Source of the DNA: an uncultured Acidaminococcus sp.
GTDB lineage: Bacteria > Bacillota_C > Negativicutes > Acidaminococcales > Acidaminococcaceae
Length of the DNA: 6,096 nt
Assembly: GCA_900314165.1 (NCBI GenBank)
Contig: OMUE01000227.1
Location: forward strand, 1 to 6,096
Direction: 5' to 3'
In this document: positions 2-6,096 of the stretch, in pieces
Layout of the letters: every line of letters begins with the position of its first letter
Numbering within the stretch: the first letter of the stretch is position 1
Translations under genes and position numbers: made by a program
The notes under the pieces: model-generated
Database searches by the model: none
Told to the model about the DNA's origin: nothing
Seen by the model: the letters and a program-made list of their open reading frames with translations, nothing else

Positions 2-1879
2 CCCAGATTTCAAAGTTCAAAAGAGGTGCTGGATTGGCGGCAGGGTCTGCGGCTGTTCCGTTTCCTGCTGGGGATCTACCCCCGGCTGCTGCCCACCATC
101 CTGGTCCTGATCCTCATTAACGCCATACTGGTGTCCATTCCGGCCGTATTCATGCAAAAAGTGGTGGCGGTGCTGGAGGAGGCCTGGGCCCGGCAGCTGA
201 CCTGGCTGGAAGTGAAACCCGTCATTTTCCGGTACGTAGCCATCCTGCTGGGGCTGTACGTGGTGTCCCTGGTGGCCAATGTGGCCTACAACCAGCTCAT
301 TGCCTTCTTTAACCAGGGCTCCCTGGCCCAGATCCGGCAGCGCATGTTCGCCCATATGGAACGGCTGCCTATTGGCTTTTTCGACAGCCACCAGCGGGGA
401 GAACTCATGAGCAGCTACACCAACGACGTGGAATCCCTGCGGCAGCTGCTGAGCATGGCTTTTCCCCAGCTGTGCGTCACGGCCCTGTCCCTGACTACGC
501 TGATTGTGATCATGGTGTATTACAGCCTGTGGATGAGCCTGGTGGTAGTAGGGGGCTGCCTGTGGTCCGTGGTCATTACCCGCAGTGTGGGAGGCCGCAG
601 TGCCCGGTTTTTTATGGAGCAGCAGCATAGCCTGGCCAGCTGCGAAGGCTTTATGGAAGAGAGCATCCAGGGGGGCAAGGTCATCAAGGTGTTCCAGCAC
701 GAGCAGCTGACCCGGGAAGCTTTTGACCGGGAAAATCGGCAGCTGTTTGAGGCGTCCTATGCGGCCAACCGGTATTCCAATACCCTGATGCCCATTCTGA
801 ATAACGTGGGCTATCTGATCTATATCGTGGTGGCCTGCGCCGGCAGCCTGTTCCTGGAGTGGCAGGTGGCCAATGTGTCCCTGTCAGGCCTGCCTTTTTC
901 CTTGGCGGTCATCGTACCGTTTTTGGGTATGGCACGGCAGTTTTCCACCAACATCCAACAGATTTCTCCCCAGATTAATGCTATCGTCATGGCTATGGCG
1001 GGCACGAAACGGATCTTCGCCCTTTTGGCAGAGCAGCCGGAAGTGGATGAGGGCACTGTGTCCCTGGTGTGCCAGGCGGGCAGCGGTTGTCAGTACCGGT
1101 GGGCCTGGCATGAGGAGGGGGGGCAGGATGTACCGCTCCGGGGCCGGGTAGAGTTCCACCATGTGGATTTTGCCTATGATCCCGGCAAGCCCATTTTGCA
1201 TGATATTACCCTGACGGCGGAGCCGGGCCAGAAGATTGCCCTGGTCGGGGCCACAGGGGCCGGCAAGACCACCATTACGAATCTGTTGAACCGGTTTTAC
1301 GAGGTCACAAAGGGATCCGTGACCTATGACGGCATCCCCCTGCAGCACATCCGGAAAAGTGCCCTGCGGCAGAGCCTGGGCATCGTCCTGCAGGATACGG
1401 TGCTGTTTACGGGGACGGTGCTGGAGAACATTCGGTACGGCAGGCTGGAAGCTACGGAGGAGGAGTGCCGGCAGGCGGCCATTCTGGCCGGGGCCGACGA
1501 TTTCATCCGCCATTTGCCCCAGGGGTACCATACGGTGCTCCACGGGGCCGGCAGCAGCCTGAGCCAGGGCCAGTGCCAGCTATTGGCTATTGCCCGGGCC
1601 GCCGTGGCCAATCCGCCGGTGATGATCATGGACGAGGCCACGTCTTCTATCGATACCCGGACGGAGCAGATTGTCCAGAAGGGCATGGATGCCCTCATGG
1701 AGGGGCGGACGGTGTTCGTCATCGCCCATCGCCTGACCACCATCCGCAATGCGGACCAGATCCTGGTCATGGACCAGGGCCGCATCGTAGAGCAGGGCAG
1801 CCACGACAGCCTCATGGCAATGCATGGACGGTATTATGAGTTGTACAGCCGGATGGATGAGGAGATGCTGGAGGAATAA
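2..1879 (+). CDS. ABC exporter half-transporter (membrane domain fused to ATPase), probably 5'-partial
   Basis: This is a multidrug/lipid-type ABC exporter subunit in the inner membrane that uses ATP to drive export; the substrate cannot be told. Numbering from the GTG at 26 gives 617 residues. About six membrane segments lie near 21-43, 70-90, 145-165, 168-186, 258-278 and 287-305. The ATPase follows: A-loop Y384, Walker A GATGAGKTT (408-416, K414), Q-loop Q456, signature LSQGQ (512-516), Walker B MIMDE (catalytic E537), SSID D-loop and H568. Residues 336-370 form a spacer with a WAW motif, as seen in the second subunit of heterodimeric Firmicute exporters, so the partner gene is probably just upstream. 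The frame stays open to base 2 and the GTG at 26 has no properly spaced Shine-Dalgarno, so the true start probably lies outside the window. Function class is sure; start and substrate are not. Confidence 0.93.
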   Translation, partial: PRFQSSKEVLDWRQGLRLFRFLLGIYPRLLPTILVLILINAILVSIPAVFMQKVVAVLEEAWARQLTWLEVKPVIFRYVAILLGLYVVSLVANVAYNQLIAFFNQGSLAQIRQRMFAHMERLPIGFFDSHQRGELMSSYTNDVESLRQLLSMAFPQLCVTALSLTTLIVIMVYYSLWMSLVVVGGCLWSVVITRSVGGRSARFFMEQQHSLASCEGFMEESIQGGKVIKVFQHEQLTREAFDRENRQLFEASYAANRYSNTLMPILNNVGYLIYIVVACAGSLFLEWQVANVSLSGLPFSLAVIVPFLGMARQFSTNIQQISPQINAIVMAMAGTKRIFALLAEQPEVDEGTVSLVCQAGSGCQYRWAWHEEGGQDVPLRGRVEFHHVDFAYDPGKPILHDITLTAEPGQKIALVGATGAGKTTITNLLNRFYEVTKGSVTYDGIPLQHIRKSALRQSLGIVLQDTVLFTGTVLENIRYGRLEATEEECRQAAILAGADDFIRHLPQGYHTVLHGAGSSLSQGQCQLLAIARAAVANPPVMIMDEATSSIDTRTEQIVQKGMDALMEGRTVFVIAHRLTTIRNADQILVMDQGRIVEQGSHDSLMAMHGRYYELYSRMDEEMLEE

Positions 1880-1929: not shown

Positions 1930-1958
1930 GTAGGGGCGCATCGAGAGATGCGCCCACC
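1930..1958 (+). repeat. REP 1 (stem class A, loop GAGA)
   Basis: GTAG foot at 1930-1933, then a perfect 9-bp stem GGGCGCATC/GATGCGCCC (1934-1942 with 1947-1955), GAGA loop and ACC tail. No paired spacer lies upstream, so this looks like the right-hand end of a truncated composite unit. Linker 1956-1987 joins it to REP 2. Confidence 0.9.
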
Positions 1959-1984
1959 GAGGTTTCCTTATATAGCAAAGCCTT

Positions 1985-2013
1985 GATGGGTTCATCTAGC
2001 GATGAACCCCTAC
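1985..2013 (-). repeat. REP 2 (stem class B)
   Basis: Read on the - strand: GTAG foot (2013-2010), stem GGGTTCATC/GATGAACCC and loop GCTA. On the + strand the arms are 1988-1996 and 2001-2009. It pairs with REP 3 across the spacer 2014-2061. Confidence 0.9.
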
Positions 2014-2061
2014 GGATGCGAGTCGGATGTACGGTGTTTTAGAAAATGAATATTGAAAGTC

Positions 2062-2090
2062 GTAGGGGCGCATCGAGAGATGCGCCCACC
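2062..2090 (+). repeat. REP 3 (stem class A, loop GAGA), abutting the transposase stop
   Basis: GTAG at 2062-2065, arms 2066-2074 and 2079-2087, GAGA loop. It is identical to REP 1 through the palindrome and the following ACCGAGGTT. The last bases of that shared tail supply the stop codon of the transposase gene on the other strand, only 7 nt from the stem. Confidence 0.9.
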
Positions 2091-2094
2091 GAGG

Positions 2095-2562
2095 TTATTC
2101 TTCTATAAATTCCTTATCCATTGCCCATTTTCGGGGATTATTTTGGATATATTCCATAATCTCTAATTTATCCTGTTCCGTCCGCACAACGTGATCATAA
2201 AATCCTCTCTGCCAGAAAGATTTACCACATTGTAAGGTTATGAAACTTTTCATGTGGCTGATAAATCGGCTGAGAGATATTGCATGTGATTCATTACCAG
2301 GATTCCTGAAAATCAGAAAATGGATATGATTGGGCATAACGACATATTGTTGGATTTCTATACCGGGATAATGGTGACGGTATTCGTCGATTATGGAGAT
2401 AACGGTTGTGCCTATAGAAGAGGGGATCAATTTATCATCCCCAATGCTTCCGAAAAGACATTTTCTATTTTGCGTGCATAATGTAATGAAATATAATCCG
2501 GTATTCTCATAGGCAAAAGGGTGTAGGCGGATATTTTTGCGATTGGGAATGGTGTAATGCAT
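2095..2562 (-). CDS. REP-associated tyrosine transposase (RAYT; Y1/HUH single-strand endonuclease)
   Basis: The 155-residue protein belongs to the Y1_Tnp (IS200-like) nuclease family, RAYT branch. These enzymes cut and join single-stranded DNA at REP palindromes through a tyrosine and metal bound by an HUH pair. Visible motifs: an N-terminal RLHPFAYENTGLYFITLCT block with a following LFG; the HUH motif in MPNHIHFLI (H79, H81); the block FWQRGFYDHVVR with probable nucleophile Y122; and a C-terminal YIQNNPRKW, which is typical of RAYTs rather than classical IS200 TnpA. Length is normal and all catalytic residues are present, so it looks intact. ATG at 2562 is preceded by AAGGAG at a 7-nt gap. 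REP pairs flank it on both sides. The stretch 2101-2400 is 37% G+C (111/300 by hand count), far below the neighbours, which suggests foreign origin. Whether it still acts on these REPs is inferred. Confidence 0.93.
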   Translation of the reverse strand: MHYTIPNRKNIRLHPFAYENTGLYFITLCTQNRKCLFGSIGDDKLIPSSIGTTVISIIDEYRHHYPGIEIQQYVVMPNHIHFLIFRNPGNESHAISLSRFISHMKSFITLQCGKSFWQRGFYDHVVRTEQDKLEIMEYIQNNPRKWAMDKEFIEE

Positions 2563-2569
2563 AGAGGAA

Positions 2570-2575
2570 CTCCTT
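2570..2575 (-). promoter_or_regulatory. Ribosome binding site of the transposase gene
   Basis: AAGGAG on the - strand, 7 nt before the ATG at 2562. It fixes that start. A TCCTT trace of the same site also appears in the linker at 1966-1970, which lacks the gene. Confidence 0.75.
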
Positions 2576-2591
2576 GGGATGGAATAGCTTT

Positions 2592-2620
2592 GGTGGGCTT
2601 ATCTGACGATAAGCCCCTAC
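2592..2620 (-). repeat. REP 4 (stem class C)
   Basis: Read on the - strand: GTAG foot (2620-2617), stem GGGCTTATC/GATAAGCCC and loop GTCA. The + strand arms are 2595-2603 and 2608-2616. It is the only class C stem in the window, lies about 30 bp upstream of the transposase start, and pairs with REP 5 across spacer 2621-2668. Confidence 0.9.
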
Positions 2621-2668
2621 GGAAGCGTGTTGTACGGATGGTATTTTGAAAAATGTACATGGAAACTC

Positions 2669-2697
2669 GTAGGGGCGCATCGAGAGATGCGCCCACA
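2669..2697 (+). repeat. REP 5 (stem class A, loop GAGA)
   Basis: GTAG 2669-2672, arms 2673-2681 and 2686-2694, GAGA loop. The tail is ACA instead of ACC, a departure from the other copies. Linker 2695-2725 follows. Confidence 0.9.
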
Positions 2698-2722
2698 AAG
2701 GGCTTTTGGAATGAGCAAGCCA

Positions 2723-2751
2723 GGTGGGTTCATCTAGCGATGAACCCCTAC
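2723..2751 (-). repeat. REP 6 (stem class B)
   Basis: GTAG foot on the - strand (2751-2748), arms 2726-2734 and 2739-2747, loop GCTA as in REP 2. It pairs with REP 7 across spacer 2752-2799, which closely matches the spacer of the REP 2/3 pair. Confidence 0.9.
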
Positions 2752-2799
2752 GGATGAGAGTCGTACGTATGGTGTTTTGGAAAATGAATATTGAAAGTC

Positions 2800-2827
2800 G
2801 TAGGGGCGCATCAAAGATGCGCCCACC
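2800..2827 (+). repeat. REP 7 (stem class A, AAA triloop variant)
   Basis: GTAG 2800-2803, arms 2804-2812 and 2816-2824. The loop is AAA, one base shorter than the GAGA loop of other + strand copies, while the stem remains perfect. It lies about 20 bp beyond the stop codon of the aminopeptidase gene and could protect the 3' end of that mRNA. Confidence 0.88.
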
Positions 2828-2844: not shown

Positions 2845-4125
2845 TCACCCAAAGAACACCGTAATCAGCTTTTCCAATGCTTCCTGATCCTTATAGCCCA
2901 TGGTCTCTCTGGCCGAATGCATGGCCAAGAGTGGCACGCCGATGTCCATGGTCCGGATAGGCGTCAGGGCCGAGGCCATGGAGCCCAGGGTGGAGCCTCC
3001 CCGGATATCGCTGCGGTTCACGAACAGCTGGCAGGGAATCCCGTTAGCCTCACACAGCCCCTTCACGATGGCCACGGCCTCTGCATCCCCGGCATAGCTC
3101 TGGGTGGATGCCTGTTTCAACACCAGGCCCCCGTTCAGCACGGGCTGGTTCGTAATGTCGCACTTATCCACGTAATTGGGATGGAGCCCATGGGCCACGT
3201 CCACGCTGAGCATGAACCCTTTGGCCAGATCCTGGTACAGCTGTTCCTGGGTGAGTCCCAGGCAGCCATAGACCCGCTGCAGCAGCTGGTCCAGCACTAG
3301 GGAGTCCGCCCCCTGCTTCGTGTTGCTGCCTACTTCTTCGTTGTCAAAAAGTGCCGCTACCCGCAGGCCTTCGCTGCATTCTCCATTGATGAGTCCCTTC
3401 AGGCAGCCTACGACGCTGGTCAGGTTGTCCAGCCGGCCGCTGGAAATAAATTCTTCGTTAAGGCCCAGGGTGCAGCCCTGTTCCACCGGATAGGTGGACA
3501 GCTCGAAGGACAGGATGTCCTCGGCCTTGCAGCCCAGTTCCCTGGCCAGGAATTTCTGGAAGAACTGTTTGTCCGGCTTTTCTTTATCTACCAGTGTGGC
3601 CAGAGGCAGCACGTCCTTTTGTTTGTTCCATTTATAGCCGTCGTTTACTTCCCGGTTCATATGGATGGCCAGGTTGGCGATGGTCAGCAGGGGCCGCTTG
3701 AAATCCACAAAATGGGTGGCCGGCGCAAAAGGATCCGCCGTCCGGGTCACTACCTTGCCTGCCAGGGACAGGGGACGGTCCAGCCAGGTGCTGACGATCA
3801 TGCCGCCGTAGCCTTCTACATTCAGCGTACCGTAGCCGTGGCCTGTGACCTCCGGTGCCGGCTTGATGCGGAAGCAGGGGAAATCCGTGTGAGCCGCGGC
3901 CATGCGCAGGCCACGGCTGCCCTTTTGGCCCGTCCGGAACGCCAGCAGGCAGGAGTCGAACACGGTGACATAGTACTTTCCTTCCGGCGCCAAAGACCAG
4001 TCAGCTCCCAGGTCCAGGGACTGGAATCCCTCTTGGTCCAACAAATGTTTTGCTGTAAGGACTGTGTGATACGGTGATGTACTTTGTTCAATAAACTGCA
4101 GCAATTCTTTTGTAATCTGTTCCAT
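2845..4125 (-). CDS. apeB: M18 family aspartyl aminopeptidase
   Basis: A cytoplasmic dinuclear zinc aminopeptidase that removes N-terminal residues from peptides; the M18 family usually prefers Asp and Glu. The 426 residues span the whole family fold with no signal peptide. Metal ligands and catalytic residues are recognisable: H79 in AAHTDFP, bridging D233 in SGRLDNL, general base E263 with ligand E264 in FDNEEVGS, D309 in SVDVAHGLHP, and H403 in LAMHSARE near the C-terminus. A conserved YKWN lies at 164-167. The ATG at 4125 has AGGAGG 7 nt upstream. It is divergent from the amino acid permease, so the two may share control and serve peptide and amino acid breakdown (inference). Its 3' end faces the REP island, with no T-tract terminator seen. 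The symbol follows the usual name for bacterial M18 enzymes; the exact substrate is not shown. Confidence 0.95.
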   Translation of the reverse strand: MEQITKELLQFIEQSTSPYHTVLTAKHLLDQEGFQSLDLGADWSLAPEGKYYVTVFDSCLLAFRTGQKGSRGLRMAAAHTDFPCFRIKPAPEVTGHGYGTLNVEGYGGMIVSTWLDRPLSLAGKVVTRTADPFAPATHFVDFKRPLLTIANLAIHMNREVNDGYKWNKQKDVLPLATLVDKEKPDKQFFQKFLARELGCKAEDILSFELSTYPVEQGCTLGLNEEFISSGRLDNLTSVVGCLKGLINGECSEGLRVAALFDNEEVGSNTKQGADSLVLDQLLQRVYGCLGLTQEQLYQDLAKGFMLSVDVAHGLHPNYVDKCDITNQPVLNGGLVLKQASTQSYAGDAEAVAIVKGLCEANGIPCQLFVNRSDIRGGSTLGSMASALTPIRTMDIGVPLLAMHSARETMGYKDQEALEKLITVFFG

Positions 4126-4306: not shown

Positions 4307-5770
4307 TTGAGCAGCAATCAAACCAATGGCAGCAACAAAGTCCTGTCCTGGCAGGCCCTGGCCCTTATGTCCTTTACATCCGTATGGGGCTTCGGCAACA
4401 TCGTCAACGGCTATGCCAATCAGGGACTAAAAGCAGTTGTTTCCTGGATCCTCATGTTCTCCCTTTACTTCATCCCTTATGTATTGATGGTAGGCGAAAT
4501 GGGCTCCACGTTTAAGGACAGCCAGGGCGGCGTGTCCTCCTGGATCCGTTCTACCACCGGTACCCGGCTGGCCTACTTTGCCGGCTGGACGTACTGGATC
4601 GTCCATATGCCCTATCTGGCCCAAAAGCCTCAAAATATCCTCATCGCCCTGGGCTGGGCTGTGCTGGGCAACGGCACCCTGACGAAGATGATGACTCCCA
4701 TGGTCCTCCAGAGTCTGGCCCTTATCCTGTTTTTCTTCTTCCTGTGGTATGCCTCCCGGGGTGTCACAGCCCTGAAGCGTATCGGTGCTCTGGCCGGTTC
4801 CAGCATGTTCATCATGTCCCTGCTGTACATCCTGCTGGCTTTGGCAGCGCCCCACCTGACCACGGCTAAAACCTTTACCTATTCCCTGAACTGGGATACC
4901 CTTATGCCCACGTTCAATTTTGATTATATGACCACCCTCGGCATCCTGGTCTTTGCCGTGGGCGGCTGCGAACGGTTGTCCCCTTATGTAAACAACCTGC
5001 AGAAACCGTCTTCTGAATTTCCGAAATCCATGATCTTCATGGCCGGCATGGTGGCTGTAACAGCCCTTCTGGGCACGTTCGCCATGGGGCTCATGTTCGA
5101 TCCTACAAATATTCCCAAAGACCTGATGATGAACGGTGCCTACTACAGCTTTGCCAAATTAGGGCAGTATTACGGCATCGGCAATACGTTCGTGACCATC
5201 TATGCCATCTGCAATATGCTGGGCCAGGCTGCTACCCTGGCCATGTCCATCGATGCGCCCATCAAGATCCTGCTGGCCGACGTGGATCCTCAGTTCGTGC
5301 CGCCCTCTTTTGCCCGCATGAACAGCCGGGGCATCCCCGTCAACGGCTACAAGCTGACGGCTGTCCTGGTGTCCATCCTGATCCTGGTGCCGGCTCTGGG
5401 CATCGGGGATATGACGAGCCTGTTTAACTGGCTGCTGCGGCTGAATGCCGTGTGCATGCCTCTCCGGTACCTGTGGGTGTTCTTTGCCTACATGATGCTG
5501 AAGAAACAGGCGGAGAAATTCACCTCTCCCTATCATTTTGTGAAGAGCAGGGGACTGGGCATGTTCGCCGGTCTGTGGTGCTTCTGCTTCACAGCCTTTG
5601 CCTGCCTCATGGGCATGTATCCTAAAGGCATAGAAGCCTATACCAGCGGCTGGTATTTCCAGCTGGCCATGAACATCATTACCCCGCTGGTTCTCATCGG
5701 CATCGGCTTCATCCTGCCCACCATCGCCAAAAAAGAACGGGAAACCGCATTAGAAGAAAGCGAACTTTGA
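4307..5770 (+). CDS. APC-superfamily amino acid permease (12 membrane helices)
   Basis: A 487-residue inner membrane transporter of the amino acid-polyamine-organocation superfamily, close in style to the YjeM and glutamate/GABA antiporter-like branch. Twelve hydrophobic segments are visible near 15-38, 44-65, 88-118, 131-149, 157-181, 207-225, 241-263, 291-312, 347-366, 370-397, 415-437 and 447-473. The broken first helix carries VWGFGNIVNGY, matching the substrate-binding glycine region of the superfamily. EMGSTFKDSQGG after helix 2 and GGCERLSPY in helix 6 are further family landmarks. The soluble tail is short and charged. It begins with TTG at 4307, supported by AAGGAGGT, and is followed by a strong hairpin. 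The divergent M18 peptidase suggests a role with acidic or other amino acids, but the substrate and the mode (symport or exchange) cannot be read from sequence. Confidence 0.93.
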   Translation: MSSNQTNGSNKVLSWQALALMSFTSVWGFGNIVNGYANQGLKAVVSWILMFSLYFIPYVLMVGEMGSTFKDSQGGVSSWIRSTTGTRLAYFAGWTYWIVHMPYLAQKPQNILIALGWAVLGNGTLTKMMTPMVLQSLALILFFFFLWYASRGVTALKRIGALAGSSMFIMSLLYILLALAAPHLTTAKTFTYSLNWDTLMPTFNFDYMTTLGILVFAVGGCERLSPYVNNLQKPSSEFPKSMIFMAGMVAVTALLGTFAMGLMFDPTNIPKDLMMNGAYYSFAKLGQYYGIGNTFVTIYAICNMLGQAATLAMSIDAPIKILLADVDPQFVPPSFARMNSRGIPVNGYKLTAVLVSILILVPALGIGDMTSLFNWLLRLNAVCMPLRYLWVFFAYMMLKKQAEKFTSPYHFVKSRGLGMFAGLWCFCFTAFACLMGMYPKGIEAYTSGWYFQLAMNIITPLVLIGIGFILPTIAKKERETALEESEL

Positions 5771-5805: not shown

Positions 5806-5838
5806 CGGGACTGGTGCAACACCTTTGCACCAGTCCCG
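5806..5838 (+). terminator. Intrinsic terminator-like hairpin after the permease
   Basis: A perfect 14-bp stem (5806-5819 with 5825-5838) closes a 5-nt CACCT loop. The downstream strand reads TTGTCT, a weak T tract. On the opposite strand the hairpin is followed by GATTTT, so it may work in both directions and insulate the permease from the REP array. It differs in sequence and size from the REPs. Confidence 0.75.
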
Positions 5839-5854
5839 TTGTCTAAGAAGCCTC

Positions 5855-5883
5855 GGTGGGCGCATCATACGATGCGCCCCTAC
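5855..5883 (-). repeat. REP 8 (stem class A, loop GTAT)
   Basis: GTAG foot on the - strand (5883-5880); arms 5858-5866 and 5871-5879. The stem is the same as REPs 1, 3, 5 and 7 but with a different loop. Confidence 0.9.
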
Positions 5884-5930
5884 GGATTTCAATGTACATT
5901 TACAAAACACTAAACAACCGACACGCATCC

Positions 5931-5959
5931 GTAGGGGTTCATCGAGAGATGAACCCACC
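5931..5959 (+). repeat. REP 9 (stem class B, loop GAGA)
   Basis: GTAG 5931-5934, arms 5935-5943 and 5948-5956. It has the class B stem of REPs 2 and 6 but carries the GAGA loop that near the transposase is found only on class A. Confidence 0.9.
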
Positions 5960-5984
5960 AGGTTTGTTTATGCAAGGAACTCCC

Positions 5985-6013
5985 GGTGGGCGCATCATAC
6001 GATGCGCCCCTAC
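5985..6013 (-). repeat. REP 10 (identical to REP 8)
   Basis: Arms 5988-5996 and 6001-6009, GTAG foot on the - strand at 6013-6010. Second tandem copy of REP 8. Confidence 0.9.
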
Positions 6014-6060
6014 GGATTTCAATGTACATTTACAAAACACTAAACAACCGACACGCATCC

Positions 6061-6089
6061 GTAGGGGTTCATCGAGAGATGAACCCACC
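6061..6089 (+). repeat. REP 11 (identical to REP 9)
   Basis: GTAG 6061-6064, arms 6065-6073 and 6078-6086. Second tandem copy of REP 9, ending just before the window edge. Confidence 0.9.
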
Positions 6090-6096
6090 AGGTTTG

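Follow-up and report, generated by a model that had tools for sequence, protein, structure and literature searches.

The 6,096-nucleotide stretch of DNA analysed here (hereafter, the window) contains a real, intact REPtron, which represents a further case of a known system. At its center lies an intact open reading frame of 155 amino acids (2095..2562, minus strand), which was identified as a RAYT (TnpAREP-like) Y1/HUH nuclease through Pfam, NCBIfam, PDB entry 4er8, and a predicted model; this gene is surrounded by hairpins with a GTAG foot. Considered jointly, a RAYT of the subclass 2.4/group 4 type, its cognate GTAG-REPs, and the mechanism outlined below very likely account for this locus. 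The neighboring genes encode an ABC transporter (26-1879, plus strand), an M18 aminopeptidase (2845-4125, minus strand), and an amino-acid permease (4307-5770, plus strand). The M18 neighbor shared 77-79% identity with its best matches in genomes G011, G006, G003, G007, and G004, all of which belong to the class of L024/G001, placed in Negativicutes.

Around the RAYT reading frame, a hairpin scan recovered seven hairpins, and in 7/7 of these GTAG was located directly 5′ of a perfect 9-bp stem with zero gap, precisely as the preliminary description had reported for the palindromes flanking this gene. REP 1 (1930..1955, loop GAGA), REP 3 (2062..2087, 7 nt away from the RAYT stop codon), REP 5 (2669..2694), and REP 7 (2800..2824) lie on the plus strand, each with GTAG followed by the stem GGGCGCATC. 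On the minus strand, the stem following GTAG is GGGTTCATC in REP 2 (1988..2013) and REP 6 (2726..2751), and GGGCTTATC in REP 4 (2595..2620, 32 nt away from the RAYT start codon). The loop measured 4 nt in six of these REPs and 3 nt in REP 7, and the orientation of the hairpins alternated on both sides of the gene. Moreover, four additional GTAG-foot hairpins with perfect 9-bp stems were found beyond 1930..2827, forming a second cluster at 5858-6086 (5858-5883 and 5988-6013 on the minus strand; 5931-5956 and 6061-6086 on the plus strand). REPs are thus not restricted to the flanks of the RAYT gene, a restriction that had been named earlier as a result that would speak against a RAYT/REP system. 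In the window, the copy number was 11 REPs in 6.1 kb, in two clusters. When all distinct perfect hairpins of the window (stem of at least 9 bp, loop of 2-7 nt) were considered, 11 of 12 possessed the GTAG foot, and 200 first-order Markov sequences of window length yielded none with such a foot. Folding of single-stranded DNA produced the expected hairpin in all four REPs tried and also in the complement of one (z of -5.0 to -6.1); because the complement of a REP folds too, folding alone leaves the strand unset.

When the 11 REPs were aligned, the elements C-GTAG-GGG, ATC, GAT, and CCC-A were invariant, and three basal G-C pairs (GGG/CCC) were present at the stem base in 11/11. Stem variation was confined to the middle three of the nine pairs (CGC in six REPs, TTC in four, and CTT in one; among the seven flanking the RAYT gene, four, two, and one, respectively), and was always compensated. 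REP 2 and REP 3 constitute a BIME-like module (1972..2094, plus strand), copies of which were found at 2579-2701 (78% identical) and 2710-2832 (76% identical), and the RAYT gene is therefore flanked by direct copies of one module. In the second cluster, a 120-nt unit (5847..5966, containing the REPs at 5858 on the minus strand and 5931 on the plus strand) is followed by a 98% identical copy (5977..6096, with the REPs at 5988 on the minus strand and 6061 on the plus strand). Given that the REPs belong to modules of about 120-130 nt that have been duplicated, the copies in the window are not independent; given also that only three of nine stem pairs vary, the conservation of GTAG in the window is no higher than that of its neighbors, the C preceding GTAG and the A following the stem being just as invariant. 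The earlier statement that stems vary while GTAG is strictly kept is accordingly accurate as to GTAG (7/7) and as to the existence of variation, but the variation is narrow and occurs within duplicated modules. These features raise the alternative that local tandem duplication carried the REPs along as passive passengers, one REP pair having been copied together with its flanks to give the 120-130-nt modules, and that GTAG was kept through recent copying and not through nuclease recognition. The identity of the modules over their full length, flanks included (76-98%), and the equal invariance of the adjoining C and A favor this explanation, whereas the compensated changes in the middle stem pairs (CGC, TTC, CTT) argue against it; we regard it as improbable.

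The position of the REPs is also relevant to a second alternative, that the hairpins serve mainly the host (in mRNA 3′-end protection, termination, or as supercoil sites) and that the RAYT is incidental. Consistent with a host role, all 11 REPs are intergenic, with the REPs of 1930-2087 located after the ABC-transporter gene and those of 5858-6086 after the permease gene. However, no intrinsic-terminator-like site was found within 1800-2900, and this explanation, too, appears unlikely. A search of the window against Rfam gave no match at gathering scores. The only one of the 12 perfect hairpins that lacks GTAG (~5810-5834) is located about 40 nt past the permease stop codon, and is perhaps the terminator of that gene.

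The RAYT protein was then compared with protein families and structures. It matched Pfam Y1_Tnp at 31.5 bits (cut-off, 23) and the NCBIfam family REP_Tyr_transpos (NF047646) at 69.3 bits, short of a cut-off of 80 that is a score threshold and no biological feature. In a PDB sequence search at E 0.001, the only match was 4er8, the E. coli REP transposase (E 1.1e-6). An AlphaFold2 model of the protein (mean pLDDT 89.1) gave 30 Foldseek matches at E ≤0.001, of which 4er8_A ranked first (E 9.5e-8, TM (query) 0.64), with IS200/IS605 transposases next. The HUH motif corresponds to H79-I80-H81 and the Y motif to Y138-I-Q-N-N142-P143 (YIQNNP); H79, H81, Y138, N142, and P143 were invariant across 39 aligned rows, comprising the window protein and 38 chosen from the 62 homologues listed. 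In the alignment with 4er8, residues W117, Q118, D123, H124, R127, and Y138 paired with E. coli W94, Q95, E100, H101, R104, and Y115, respectively (E. coli residues are numbered by position in the 4er8 chain). By motif and alignment, the catalytic tyrosine is Y138 and not Y122, which had been put forward as the residue to mutate; Y122 exists in the protein, but pairs with E. coli W99.

The same comparisons bear on a third alternative, in which the gene would belong to an IS200-like insertion sequence with the flanking hairpins as its ends. Although the Y1 superfamily is shared and direct copies of one module stand on either side of the gene, the IS200 model scored 24.5 bits, far short of its cut-off of 55, the Y motif reads Y---NP and not Y---Q (following the motifs set out in PMC6006769), and 4er8 outranks the insertion-sequence transposases structurally. 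In addition, the 90% cluster of the RAYT protein contains two members, the next proteins being 68% and 51% identical among the homologues listed from the protein database. An IS200-like element is therefore highly improbable here, far more so than either of the other two alternatives.

With respect to known systems, the RAYT fits, by its motifs, subclass 2.4, which Table 1 of PMC6006769 equates with Bertels group 4. The motifs listed there (NH[IFV]H, WQ, and YIxNNP) are satisfied by NHIH, WQ, and YIQNNP in the window protein; subclasses 2.1, 2.2, 2.5, 2.6, and 2.7 were rejected, as their motifs do not match. The likeness extends to features that the sections of PMC6006769 on subclass 2.4 describe, namely REPs with three basal G-C pairs, a GT[AG]G foot, and, in relatives of the window locus, REPs within the RAYT gene, which that source places generally between HuH and Y with the frame kept. 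In contrast to that subclass, the window gene lacks an internal REP and encodes 155 amino acids (the median given there is 194). The REPtron of E. coli TnpAREP (group 2; 4er8) has in common with the window locus the HUH/Y1 core, the W/Q/(E or D)/H/R residues of the GTAG region, and gene-adjacent REPs in alternating orientation. However, E. coli REPs are imperfect and contain a bulge, whereas those of the window are perfect 9-bp palindromes, and nothing in the window protein, which ends 12 residues past NNP, corresponds to the E. coli C-terminal tail with its G160 and E161 contacts. The group 3 REPtrons of Stenotrophomonas (Sm) and Marinomonas (Mb), as characterized in portions of PMC8266576, resemble the window in their perfect palindromes, in the D at the E100 position, and in being without the group 2 C-terminal extension, but their motifs differ (DH[LF]H and YI[VI]ANP in Table 1 of PMC6006769).

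The hairpins themselves resemble the GTAG-REP super-family as outlined in parts of PMC3733652, in the GTAG foot, stems mostly of 6-9 bp, inverted dimers, tandem clusters, and location downstream of genes. That report assigned GTAG or CGTC REPs, inverted dimers and tandem clusters included, to over 80 species from 8 phyla, and GTAG REPs outside Proteobacteria have already been published there; a word search of that report found no mention of Firmicutes, Negativicutes, Clostridi, or the three genera sought. A table in PMC2817692 lists GTAG REPs with their RAYTs, Proteobacteria being among its rows. In view of what these sources (PMC6006769, PMC3733652, PMC2817692) contain on GTAG REPs and RAYTs, the system as such is known.

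According to the relevant passages of PMC8266576, E. coli TnpAREP cannot do without GTAG, which is contacted by G160 and E161 of its C-terminal tail, whereas two perfect-palindrome REPtrons largely tolerate changes of GTAG (Sm with respect to binding, Mb with respect to cleavage). The passage on GTAG recognition in PMC6006769 names five E. coli residues, with W94 described as unclear in its role; of the five, four are identical in the RAYT protein, and the fifth, E100, is replaced by D. By alignment, residues W117-R127 would argue for GTAG contact; the absent tail and the perfect stem, by analogy with the systems above, would argue against full E. coli-like GTAG dependence. The interpretation given in the preliminary description is sustained in part, namely as to the REPtron; that the window follows the same recognition logic as E. 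coli is not established. It is plausible that the nuclease recognizes GTAG, and this is better backed by the relatives than by the window.

To place the locus among its relatives, RAYT matches at E 0.001 were collected and were found in 41/380 genomes of the class of L024/G001, many of them weak. The nearest RAYTs were those of G006 (50%) and G011 (46%), which were also tree sisters of the window RAYT (SH-aLRT 85). Pfam Y1_Tnp was discarded as a RAYT detector; the RAYTs that the protein search recovered in G007 and G011 escaped it, and, from score and length, the strong Y1_Tnp matches in these genomes look like IS200-type genes. Hairpin feet were surveyed at 28 RAYT loci (E ≤1e-14 to the window protein, short-flank duplicates dropped, 81 screened) plus the window, by counting all perfect hairpins of at least 8 bp with any foot, the window's own hairpins included. 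Within 1.5 kb of the gene, GTAG was the commonest foot (51 of 192; next best, 9), and beyond 1.5 kb it accounted for 18 of 158 feet (next best, 11). GTAG feet were hence denser near the RAYT (51 per 99 kb) than further out at the same loci (18 per 193 kb), which argues against a mainly host-serving role. A perfect GTAG hairpin of at least 8 bp was present within 1.5 kb of the gene at 13/29 loci and was not found there at the other 16; with one mismatch allowed, such hairpins occurred near the gene at 24/29 loci, leaving five without (L014, L017, L018, L020, and L098). Six control feet in the one-mismatch scan each gave 0 to 5 matches, the scanned stretches being up to 19 kb long. At locus L095 (G334), 29 GTAG hairpins (one mismatch allowed) were observed in alternating arrays over 19 kb around the RAYT, where the control foot GATG gave 5 and the other five control feet none.

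Stems varied between loci, mostly starting with GGG or GG, and GTAG with other stems was found at RAYT loci belonging to other classes and phyla, an observation that argues against passive local duplication. Recurrence across loci offers the better evidence that GTAG is the feature common to the nucleases. Taken together with the Y1/HUH match and the top structural match to 4er8, the recurrence of this arrangement at many of the relatives' RAYT loci upholds the view, already expressed in the preliminary description, of a RAYT among its apparent cognate REPs.

Genome-wide abundance was assessed with a pattern of GTAGGGG followed by CCC at REP distance, compared with a reversed-pattern control; overlapping matches were counted repeatedly. 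The pattern exceeded the control in two of nine related genomes, G003 (220 vs 131) and G007 (231 vs 120), and showed no excess in G004, G005, G006, G008, G009, G010, or G011. In the two genomes with the nearest RAYTs, counts were 79 vs 122 (G006) and 63 vs 82 (G011), a result that favors the duplication alternative. GTAG hairpins were nevertheless present at the RAYT of both G006 and G011, and in G011 also at three other places examined; no GTAG-GGG hairpins were found in arbitrarily chosen sequence from G011 (76 kb) or G006 (38 kb). When ten 20-kb stretches were examined in each genome, 12 GTAG-GGG hairpins were obtained from G003 (four of which formed one local array) and 9 from G007, and the two genomes had REP stem types in common, in dispersed copies. 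Eight control feet combined gave 8 hairpins (6 GACG) and 3 (all GACG) in these 200-kb samples of G003 and G007, respectively. The GACG-foot hairpins had a GGG base (six in G003, at L130, L133, L136, and L137; three in G007, at L142 and L145, two of which are one palindrome read on both strands); they exceed the other control feet, and perhaps represent another repeat family or terminators.

A RAYT is present in G007, but none was matched in G003 by the window protein at E 0.001 or by the G007 protein at E ≤1. The retention of REPs in G003 with no detectable RAYT favors a host role. It had been anticipated that equal REP abundance in related strains that never had the RAYT would speak against a RAYT/REP system, and the outcome is mixed: REP abundance in G003 is about that of G007, and G006 and G011 have a RAYT with no excess, but that G003 never had the gene is not established. 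Because G003 and G007 have REP types in common, loss of the RAYT in G003 is as possible as its never having been there, and would be the simplest interpretation. In this small sample, REP number does not follow RAYT presence.

The exact stem type of the window was sought as the pattern GTAGGGGNNNATC...GATNNNCCC in the 380 genomes of the class, and matches occurred in three (G004, G011, and G219), with no clean hairpin in G219. This stem type is rare in these genomes, but the count is a poor guide to GTAG REPs whose stems differ. Eight stretches on seven viral contigs matched the exact stem and were rejected; all matched with a 2-nt loop and had 59-66% GC, and for these reasons are probably no copies of the window REP family. 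Two IMG/VR contigs listed as viral, L123 and L129, contained many GTAG hairpins with varied, compensated stems, and in L123 all of them (11/11) were on one strand.

In relatives, REPs were also found inside the RAYT gene. With one mismatch allowed, GTAG hairpins of both orientations occurred within one uninterrupted RAYT frame at 13/43 loci (L002, L003, L005-L011, L015, L016, L022, and L030), counting L022, which has a short frame, and L030, which has three hairpins in one direction. Host roles do not readily explain REPs within RAYT reading frames. In the 11 of 13 that were aligned (all but L022 and L030), the hairpins lay at or near two places around the HUH segment, corresponding to a turn at GSI-GDDK of the window protein (residues 38-44) and to the loop that follows the HUH strand (residues 87-96), with strands and helices taken from the predicted window model. 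One REP of the pair thus precedes HUH, unlike the location generally between HuH and Y given in the pertinent section of PMC6006769. All 13 loci fell within an 18-row Clostridia part of the tree (SH-aLRT 91), and the in-gene label required 6 changes over 42 rows, compared with a shuffled mean of 11.3 (0/500 shuffles as low). Copies within the same gene were 97% identical on average and those of different genes 60% (72 comparisons, maximum 91%); when copies were re-paired, 0/10,000 trials reached the observed sum. This comparison used nine representative genes out of 13 measured, near-copies being dropped, with L021 (broken frame) included and L030 left out. At L030 (4109-4290), the three same-direction hairpins are spaced in 78-nt steps with the frame open, and the RAYT frame of L015 contains a repeated peptide; both look like tandem multiplication of the in-gene REP segment.

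One possible, still tentative, reading of these data as a whole is that in the Clostridia relatives the RAYT and its REPs leave a record of their co-evolution, in which opposite-orientation REPs occupy two fixed surface loops flanking the HUH-coding segment, GTAG stays constant, stem and loop are nearly alike in the two copies of one gene but differ between lineages, and the RAYT may convert its internal REPs in step. The parts of the literature searched yielded no account of a fixed REP pair around HUH with concerted change. If this reading is true, each RAYT gene would carry its current recognition sequence.

For the window, the REPtron with cognate GTAG-REPs is the account that we favor. 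Most likely, the HUH nuclease would bind a REP hairpin on one strand, once that strand is exposed in single-stranded form, reading GTAG plus features of the stem and loop; it would then most likely cut beside the hairpin, with Y138 as the nucleophile, and rejoin the strands, and over time such cutting and rejoining would most likely copy and spread REP pairs. Binding, cleavage, and spreading are drawn from published work on E. coli and group 3; our own analysis contributes the hairpins, a catalytic site and a GTAG region whose residues are intact, a fold prediction, and evidence that GTAG hairpins are associated with RAYTs in relatives. The REPtrons assayed in the passages of PMC8266576 considered here belong to groups 2 and 3, and a RAYT that is short, has no tail, and is paired with perfect palindromes would distinguish E. 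coli-like GTAG reading from group 3-like tolerance. Among the clostridial genes that contain REP pairs, many nuclease/REP combinations occur naturally, from which the recognition code could be worked out. With this work, a system known chiefly from studies in Proteobacteria gains REPtrons of Bacillota (Negativicutes and Clostridia).
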